Positions 23,925 to 26,254 of a DNA stretch of 26,643 bases are shown here, in pieces (position 1 is the first letter of the stretch; the number at the start of each line of letters is the position of its first letter). The translations under genes were made by a program, and so were the position numbers. This DNA is from a virus: IMG/VR virus record IMGVR_UViG_3300036652_000500, positions 1-26,643 of that record; one strand, given 5' to 3'. The notes beneath the pieces are model-generated. The model saw only the letters and a program-made list of their open reading frames with translations, ran no database searches and was not told the origin of the DNA.

Positions 23925-24180
23925 CCATTATCTTCCCTCGGCTGCTCCACCAACCCGCCTTTATTCTCCACCCCTACTACCTTCATCATCAACACCTACC
24001 GGCAGACCAATCCCCCATCTACCAATCAACATCTAGCTGCGTCACCTATCAACCACGACACTCCACGCCTACCAATACACCTACCAATACACCTACCGGT
24101 AGACCACTCCGCACCAACTACCAACACCTTCCACACTCCACCTCTCTCAACACCTACCGGTAGACCACCCTCCCCTGCAT
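23925..24180. promoter_or_regulatory. G-poor control region with CTACC repeats
   Basis: No convincing gene on either strand. By hand count, positions 23941-24180 hold about 111 C and only 19 G on the plus strand. The pentamer CTACC occurs about eight times. Three copies of a 17-mer (CACCTACCGGTAGACCA; 23993-24009 with one mismatch, 24090-24106, 24151-24167) each contain the palindrome CTACCGGTAG. Positions 24068-24103 are three tandem 12-bp units (CCTACCAATACA twice, then CCTACCGGTAGA). It lies directly upstream of the late promoter, so the repeats are candidate sites for a late activator or repressor. Confidence 0.6.
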
Positions 24181-25032: not shown

Positions 25033-25299
25033 ATTCCATCCCTGTAAACCCCCGTTGCACCTCGGGTGCCCCCTTGATAACCCCCTCATGTTCTGATTTT
25101 ACTTTTCAGAGGGTCATGCCTCCCACGGCCACCAACACCGGTTCTACCCCTCCTTTTTACAATTTTTTTTTTTGAAGAGAGATAGGGGGGTGGAATAGAC
25201 CGGCGGGGAGGAGGTACACTTGTCAGAAAGTAAAATCAGAACATGAGGGGGGTAACAGGGGGTTATCAAGGTAGTATCCAGGGTTTACAGGGATGGAAT
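25033..25299. repeat. 267-bp interrupted palindrome
   Basis: Arms share a 19-nt block (25033-25051 with 25281-25299) and a 25-nt block (25081-25105 with 25227-25251), both centred exactly on 25166. A further 14-nt block (25072-25085 with 25258-25271) is offset by about 11 nt, showing an indel between arms. The centre has an 11-T run (25163-25173) and partly paired CCGG-containing stretches. No gene lies in 24886-25437. It could be an origin, a decayed mobile element or two copies of a control sequence in opposite orientation. Confidence 0.8.
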
Positions 25300-25332: not shown

Positions 25333-25361
25333 TTGACCTTTGTGAGGAAATGTGGTATAGT
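25333..25361 (+). promoter_or_regulatory. Sigma70-type promoter
   Basis: TTGACC (25333-25338), 17-nt spacer, TATAGT (25356-25361): five of six bases at each element. It points to the 90-aa gene and the Cys-repeat gene; expected 5' leader about 70 nt. Confidence 0.75.
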
Positions 25362-25437: not shown

Positions 25438-25710
25438 ATGGATAAGAACCCTTGGGGATTGAAGGAAGTTGTGGGTTGGACGGCGGTTGGGCCGGAAGGG
25501 TATTTGAAGGATAACTATGCGGCCATTTGGCGAAGATTGCGCGGTGAGGCGGCGGAGAGGTTTAAGCGGAGGTGGTTGATTAAACCGCCGGAAACGGTGC
25601 AATCAACGCAGGTGGATCAGAAGGCGTTGCGGATTGTGGAAGAAATGTTCGCCACAACGGAATTGAAGATCAAGCCGTATCTTGGGGAAGATGATGAGTT
25701 GGCGCCATGA
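25438..25710 (+). CDS. Hypothetical protein (90 aa)
   Basis: 90 aa, from ATG 25438; two nearer-promoter ATGs are in other frames. The leader before the start (ATGGAAGATGG) matches that before the 99-aa gene at 24530. It begins MDKNPWGLKEVVGWTAVGPE and has a basic stretch (IWRRLRGEAAERFKRRWLIK) and an acidic end (LGEDDELAP). No family recognised. It is first in the promoter 25333 transcript and lies 28 nt before the Cys-repeat gene, so the two are probably co-expressed. Confidence 0.62.
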   Translation: MDKNPWGLKEVVGWTAVGPEGYLKDNYAAIWRRLRGEAAERFKRRWLIKPPETVQSTQVDQKALRIVEEMFATTELKIKPYLGEDDELAP

Positions 25711-25738
25711 GCGCTCGACAAGAATATAGGAGGGGATT

Positions 25739-26194
25739 ATGTCTACTTGGATCAGTGATGAAAATGGAAATAAAGCAAGTGTGGAGTGTTGGGGAAGTGA
25801 AGAAAAGGCGCGTGAGGCGTTAGAGAGTTGCAACAATTGCATTAATTGCAATAATTGCAATAATTGCAATCAATGCAACGATTGCATTGATTGCATTAAT
25901 TGCAACAATTGCAATTATTGCAATTGTTGCAATCGTTGCGATAATTGCAATTATTGCAAGGAATGCGCTGTAAAATTTTCAACACGTTCAGATGGATATA
26001 CTTTCTATCTGGATACAGCTAATTACATTCGTGCAGGTTGTCGCATGTTCCATTCCTTTGCCGAAGCAAGAGAACATTGGAAACATCGCAAAGGAACTCA
26101 GTTAGGGATTGAAACAGAGGCAATTTTACAGGCGATGGAACAAATCGTGGAATTGATGGGGATTCGTCTCCCAGTAGGTGTTACCGATAGGTGA
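25739..26194 (+). CDS. Cys-x-x tripeptide-repeat protein
   Basis: 151 aa behind a strong AGGAGG site. Residues 1-30 are globular (STWISDENGNKASVECWGSE). Residues 31-76 carry 16 cysteines at every third position without a break (C31, C34 ... C76), with one extra Cys at 63; the other positions are mainly Asn, Ile, Asp, Tyr. Residues 77-151 form a C-terminal domain (TFYLDTANYIRAGCRMFHSF, then AEAREHWKHRKGTQ and a helical end). No signal peptide, so the thiols are in the reducing cytoplasm. A 3-residue period would line the Cys up on one face of a 3-10-like or extended helix, suiting metal binding. I recall similar Cys-repeat hypotheticals in phages and alphaproteobacteria but no assigned function. 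Confidence 0.78.
   Translation: MSTWISDENGNKASVECWGSEEKAREALESCNNCINCNNCNNCNQCNDCIDCINCNNCNYCNCCNRCDNCNYCKECAVKFSTRSDGYTFYLDTANYIRAGCRMFHSFAEAREHWKHRKGTQLGIETEAILQAMEQIVELMGIRLPVGVTDR
25829..25966 (+). repeat. AATTGCAA-type tandem repeat encoding Cys-x-x units
   Basis: Sixteen 9-bp units of the form (A/G)(A/T)TTGCAA(T/C), so the palindrome TTGCAA recurs about every 9 nt. The stretch is nearly its own reverse complement and can fold in many registers, allowing expansion or contraction by whole Cys-x-x units. Confidence 0.8.
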
Positions 26195-26197
26195 TGA

Positions 26198-26254
26198 TGC
26201 ACCGCACCATCACGAAAACGTGATTTGATTGTGCGGTGCAACATCGGTTATAAT
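26198..26254 (+). promoter_or_regulatory. Promoter overlapped by nested inverted repeat
   Basis: TTGATT (26225-26230), 18-nt spacer, TATAAT (26249-26254) makes a good sigma70 promoter for the 86-aa gene. TGCACCGCAC (26198-26207) and GTGCGGTGCA (26231-26240) are perfect 10-bp arms, the second lying in the promoter spacer; inside them ATCACG/CGTGAT form a second stem around AAAA. The layout fits a repressor operator, or an RNA hairpin ending the Cys-repeat transcript (no T run). Confidence 0.68.

Follow-up and report, generated by a model that had tools for sequence, protein, structure and literature searches.

A small gene close to the right end of the viral DNA analysed here encodes a protein in which cysteine recurs at every third residue through a long central array. 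We propose, with a probability of about 0.6, that this protein is built of an N-terminal cap, a tripeptide β-solenoid with a thiol core, and a C-terminal domain. As judged by sequence comparison, the Cys-x-x (Cxx) array occupies the place otherwise taken by known β-solenoids beside two C-terminal domains, and because it swaps with them we read it as a tripeptide β-solenoid with its thiols turned inward. The N-terminal domain would cap the rod, the cysteine at every third residue would face the interior and pack as a thiol core in the reducing cytoplasm, and the outward x-x residues would form a variable surface. The C-terminal domain would be of the kind that phages mount on several interchangeable β-solenoids. 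Rod length would be set by the number of repeats and would change through repeat gain and loss, and the end domains would probably both cap the rod and bind a partner. We consider it likely that the array folds as a solenoid; that one coil comprises four tripeptides, or 12 residues, is an even call, and a length-adjustable binding rod is a tentative suggestion for its function.

The gene and its cysteine array

The window, by which we mean the whole stretch of DNA analysed, is 26,643 bases long and is an IMG/VR virus record that may be fragmentary. Its large terminase shares ~39–43% identity with its counterparts in Pseudomonas phage AF and Salmonella phage epsilon15. The gene, its parts and the elements around it are as follows.

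25333–25361, plus strand: candidate sigma-70-like promoter, TTGACC-17-TATAGT with TG preceding the second hexamer, from a consensus scan only (10/12 matches)
25438–25710, plus strand: small ORF of 90 aa upstream of the Cxx-array gene, without a family match
25728–25733, plus strand: Shine–Dalgarno sequence AGGAGG, read from the sequence, 5 nt upstream of the ATG
25739–26194, plus strand: Cxx-array gene, 151 aa, ATG start; ortholog L237; match to phrog_15341
25739–25828, plus strand: N-terminal domain, residues 1–30, W-x-x-D-x-N-G-N-x-x-S-V-E ... E-x-A-x-x-A-L, predicted β-β-α
25829–25966, plus strand: (Cys-x-x) array, residues 31–76, 16 in-phase Cys, proposed tripeptide β-solenoid
25970–26161, plus strand: C-terminal domain, residues 78–141, RSDGYxF ... 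IxAGCRxF ... EAREHW ... GTxLGxET, with homologues behind several β-solenoid types
26193–26245, plus strand: inverted repeat 3′ of the gene, 20-nt arms, 90% complementary, a terminator-like hairpin and putative terminator

The promoter-like site lies upstream of both the 25438 and the 25739 genes, and the 90-aa ORF is probably co-transcribed with the Cxx-array gene. Just upstream of this site, two non-coding segments (25033–25105 and 25227–25299) form a 73-nt inverted repeat that is 79% complementary, with 121 nt between its arms. Short direct repeats, CACCTACCGG[CT]AGACCA and CCTACCAATACA, occur at 23989–24174, the junction at which the minus-strand virion genes end and the plus-strand genes start. 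The protein itself is acidic (pI 5.2), no hydrophobic stretch is visible at its N-terminus, and it is probably a small cytoplasmic phage accessory protein. We found no plasmid match and, across the Cxx-array family, no recurrent neighbour genes except among near-identical phages.

In-phase cysteines stand at residues 31, 34 and so on to 76 (n = 16), with further cysteines at 17, 63 and 101. Asparagine accounts for 17 of the 46 residues of the array and threonine is absent; under the solenoid reading, the outward x-x residues would be Asn, Ile, Asp and Tyr. An earlier note, made from the letters of this DNA, had described a cysteine at every third residue from 31 to 76 with Asn-rich sequence between, N- and C-terminal flanking domains and a strong ribosome site. 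The residue positions confirm the first two of these points, separate homologues exist for each of the flanking domains, and the AGGAGG ahead of the ATG agrees with the last. A run of 16 such steps has a chance probability of about 6e-13 at the protein's own cysteine frequency and of 1.5e-30 at 1% Cys.

At the DNA level the array is a 9-bp tandem repeat of 14.7 copies (25828–25959, TRF). Two other frames of the same DNA contain 16-step A-x-x runs; since the 9-bp repeat makes these frames regular as well, the frame is decided by the flanking domains and by the ortholog L237 from Thalassobius sp. Cn5-15. This ortholog has the same three modules (49% identity over residues 1–138, E 3.5e-35), and its match nearly from end to end indicates a real gene. 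The window array is also rich in the palindrome TTGCAA and so gives rise to long imperfect inverted repeats, as might be expected if the DNA or RNA were the conserved entity, acting as a regulatory palindrome or as a series of binding sites. However, homologues produce the same cysteine pattern from different DNA (TCG, TCC or AGT serines, TGC or TGT cysteines), and between the conserved domains the pattern keeps to a single frame. A search of Rfam returned no match. We rejected this reading, which the use of different codons by the homologues makes scarcely credible.

The phrog_15341 profile matches the N-terminal domain and array of the window protein (residues 6–77, E 2.5e-9), and it also matches L237 (6.3e-10), the homologues L004 (1.1e-28) and L195 (4.9e-20) and the other Cxx-array proteins tested. 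It carries no functional or structural description, and the proteins that it matches end in several different C-terminal domains. No Pfam or NCBIfam profile matched the window protein up to E 1, the pentapeptide profile PF00805 (A-[DN]-L-x-x), the YdcK profile PF18836 (V-x-G-[ND]-A-x) and metallothionein or other Cys-rich metal-binding profiles included. PADLOC defence-system profiles gave no match up to E 1 for the window protein and three homologues. A search of PDB sequences assigned no family and returned weak matches only (best E 0.4).

Conservation of cysteine among homologues

A pattern scan of viral contigs for ten in-phase Cys codons recovered many genuine arrays together with obvious wrong-frame matches, and conservation was counted in 85 distinct proteins whose N-terminal domain is of the same kind. 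Cysteine occupied 2106 of 2115 in-phase positions (99.6%), a value that is somewhat favourable by construction because the walk that defines an array ends at two consecutive misses. The nine exceptions were Ser (6), Phe (2) and Tyr (1), and never His, Asp or Glu; L101, a more distant array, has Leu and Ser in place of some in-phase cysteines. Both cysteine codons are common (TGC 1725, TGT 381) and replacement is rare, and thus the residue is what is kept. The spacing between cysteines was exactly 3 in 2114 of 2129 intervals (99.3%), with one extra residue in six. By contrast, 20 different residues were found at x1 and 18 at x2, mostly Ser, Arg and Thr, then Asp, Gly, Arg, Asn and Tyr. The homologues therefore do the reverse of replacing cysteine freely while keeping an asparagine pattern, a possibility that the earlier note had raised: cysteine is kept and the asparagine pattern is not. 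Array length ranged from 6 to 53 steps, in line with the variable repeat number suggested in that note.

In 83 of the 85 proteins a leucine stands one step ahead of the first array cysteine. Cys31 of the window protein aligns with this conserved leucine, so the family array proper begins at Cys34 and has 15 in-phase cysteines here. We detected no higher period in the x-x residues specific to 9, 12, 15 or 18 residues; a short-lag excess in the all-protein set largely disappeared in diverse arrays and looks like local duplication. As the x-x residues have no 12-residue period, all tripeptides appear equivalent.

Several arrays depart from the common arrangement. A 41-kb phage contig (IMGVR_UViG_3300037172_000055) has several paralogous Cxx-array genes with differing arrays (L005, L006, L030), and at least four Cxx-array genes lie in tandem at L075 (IMGVR_UViG_3300045136_000401). 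L206 (3001–3396) carries the N-terminal domain but no Cxx array, and the array of L225 (2986–3567) shifts frame into Leu-Leu-Gly repeats, through slippage or sequencing error. L064 and L101 combine long Cxx arrays with other end domains, and L064 is rich in Lys and Asp.

Each adjacent pair of cysteines in the array is a CxxC, and the earlier note had taken metal or redox capture as its leading idea. The array could then be a polythiol whose successive CxxC pairs chelate Zn, Cu(I) or Fe-S and buffer or capture metal during infection, whether as a flexible chain resembling metallothionein or in a fold that metal stabilises. The near absence of replacements at in-phase positions is in keeping with this, Cys-rich zinc proteins are found among the weak matches to PDB sequences, and most of the array stays unfolded in AlphaFold2, a method that does not model metals. 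However, the residues that do replace cysteine are not the metal ligands His, Asp or Glu, the in-phase residue ahead of the array is Leu, and metallothionein-type families in Pfam and NCBIfam are without a match. A loose chelator would require neither such exact spacing nor exchange with β-solenoids. In-phase Leu, Phe and Tyr are more readily explained by a buried core than by metal ligation, and together with the serine replacements and the β-solenoid swaps they count against giving first place to metal or redox capture; we regard the polythiol as the chief rival reading but as unlikely.

End domains shared with known β-solenoids

A domain scan showed the N-terminal domain to be conserved at 67 loci of viruses and 3 of bacteria. 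In most of its relatives the N-terminal domain and array are followed by an end domain different from that of the window protein (IPxIxxIHxxV ... WHTCETTHCRAGWVVHLAGEAG). A profile comparison of the N- and C-terminal domains showed no relationship between them (probability 2.9%), and the N-terminal domain of homologues gave a weak echo of Pfam AP2 (E 0.06–0.08) that is far below the cut-off.

The C-terminal domain of the window protein was found in 38 viral loci, where it is preceded by YdcK-type hexapeptides in 32, by pentapeptides in two (L137, L157), by a GGTIx repeat in two (L149, L150) and by a very short YdcK-like stretch in two. Caulobacter phage GB2A likewise has a window-type C-terminal domain behind a pentapeptide solenoid. 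A Cxx array stands ahead of this type of domain in the window protein, in L237 and in L220, where the C-terminal domain is divergent. The GGTIxGGTIx repeat of L149 (2–343) and L150 (2–256) has no Pfam match above the cut-off and is possibly another solenoid repeat.

A second C-terminal domain (HMQIGCQ.H) follows Cxx arrays in L107/L325 and L009/L388. Across the 75 loci with intact contig context it is preceded by pentapeptides in 72, by YdcK repeats in one (L361) and by Cxx arrays in two, counts that leave out five further loci cut by a contig end. Annotated cases that pair pentapeptides with HMQIGCQ.H come from Rheinheimera, Acinetobacter and Caulobacter phages. For a third C-terminal domain (THCRAGW), the preceding module is a Cxx array in 76 of the top 80 loci; phrog_31265 gives a match to this domain as well as to a stretch of pentapeptides. 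In Flavobacterium phage FL-1 (KY421186.2; L240, 1003–1830) the Cxx array is unannotated and is overlapped in another frame by the hypothetical protein APZ82901.1 (IAPVAPIAPV...), and the array's own frame appears shifted near the THCRAGW motif of the next domain.

Among the closest parallels are the phage YdcK proteins (PF18836; phrog_7964, phrog_5070), accessory genes of variable repeat number with the same C-terminal domain right after the repeat, and phage pentapeptide proteins (PF00805) such as Caulobacter phage GB2A gp015, in which that domain also follows the repeat. They differ in the repeat itself. YdcK proteins have a hexapeptide and another N-terminal part, and L002 and L003, which carry the window-type C-terminal domain, match PF18836 whereas the window protein does not; the pentapeptide unit has five residues, whereas the window protein's has three. 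The exchange establishes positional equivalence, not identity of fold.

Gyrase is bound by pentapeptide solenoids such as MfpA and Qnr, the former of which is a DNA mimic (PMC10886550). As the window-type C-terminal domain also occurs on pentapeptide solenoids and the window protein is acidic, its array might similarly serve as a DNA-mimicking inhibitor. However, arrays across the family are nearly charge-balanced (678 D+E against 525 K+R in 6505 residues), the window array is mostly Cys and Asn, and no link to gyrase was found. DNA mimicry, disfavoured by the near charge balance of the arrays, is in our estimate very improbable.

Structure models and implications

An AlphaFold2 model of the window protein, built on a 72-row alignment, gave confident end domains, but most of the array had low pLDDT, with one weakly modelled coil. 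The N-terminal domain was modelled as β-β-α (pLDDT about 90) and the C-terminal domain as four short strands and two helices (pLDDT about 90–97 for residues 81–140). In the array, pLDDT was 81 for residues 31–40 and 64 for 41–50, then mostly below 60, and under 50 at 52–60 and 65–74. Isolated bridges were modelled at residues 32, 35 and 38 and at 44 and 47, a spacing that would pair i with i+12. For the array of the 31-step homologue L195 the model showed no fold (pLDDT about 25–41). AlphaFold2 thus lends weak support to a single coil of the window array and none to a coil in L195.

When the window model was compared with the predicted viral proteins of BFVD, the best matches that bear a name included a 'Beta solenoid repeat protein' and two phage proteins of the pentapeptide type (probability 0.99–1.00). 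Against the PDB, Foldseek found nothing below E 1 (best E 1.2). A VIA comparison with solved structures reached Z scores of 4.7 and lower, for the C-terminal domain only, which is too weak for an assignment; its rows were ribosomal proteins, then MBD- and AP2-type folds.

Low AlphaFold2 confidence would also be expected of a low-complexity expansion without a defined fold, i.e. a slippage-prone spacer between two functional domains. Such a spacer would accommodate the 9-bp tandem repeats, the free variation in length and the frame shift within the array of L225. It is hard to reconcile with purifying selection on one residue, cysteine being retained through synonymous TGC and TGT codons while x1 and x2 vary almost without restriction, and what stands there instead in other proteins is an ordered solenoid and not a generic linker. 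We consider a spacer improbable.

A precedent for the proposed tripeptide solenoid is the Tenebrio antifreeze protein, in whose 12-residue coil the side chains point out-in-out-out-in and so on, with Cys2, Ser5, Cys8 and Ala11 inward (PMC8038014). In this protein (TmAFP; PDB 1EZG; TCTxSxNCxxAx) every third position is inward and cysteine lines the core, and the i/i+12 bridges modelled in the window array's first coil may reflect a similar geometry. With every third residue inward, a coil of the Cxx array would direct four cysteines into the core. A solenoid of this kind is more likely than the helix with three residues per turn that the earlier note had offered. TmAFP, in contrast, is a secreted, disulfide-bonded insect protein with a Thr ice-binding face, whereas the phage array repeats every three residues and all four inward positions of a coil would be Cys. 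We detected no sequence relationship of the window array to the TmAFP type, no 12-residue periodicity and no Thr.

Thiols are poor core formers compared with Leu, Val or Ile, and poly-CxxC chains readily bind metal. For these reasons a fold that depends on metal would account for most of these observations as well. In a further reading, which we think quite unlikely, the array would be a new class of β-solenoid with about four inward thiols per coil whose coils, singly or in pairs, bind a metal ion and so form a genetically length-tunable metal–thiolate chain inside the host.

Our search of the open-access literature, which took in few subscription papers and no bioRxiv preprints, found no description of a Cxx repeat, and the array is probably an undescribed repeat class among the β-solenoid accessory proteins of phages. 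If it folds as proposed, it would have the shortest-period β-solenoid core known to us and an interior made up almost purely of thiols, within a protein that is probably synthesised in a reducing cytoplasm, and would be of use to protein design and to metal and redox biology. Hundreds of unannotated phage genes thereby gain a structural hypothesis. The same small end domains seem to recur in phages on at least three kinds of solenoid repeat, built of hexapeptides, pentapeptides and Cys tripeptides, and this sharing suggests a common, as yet unstudied function for which a rod is required but no particular sequence.
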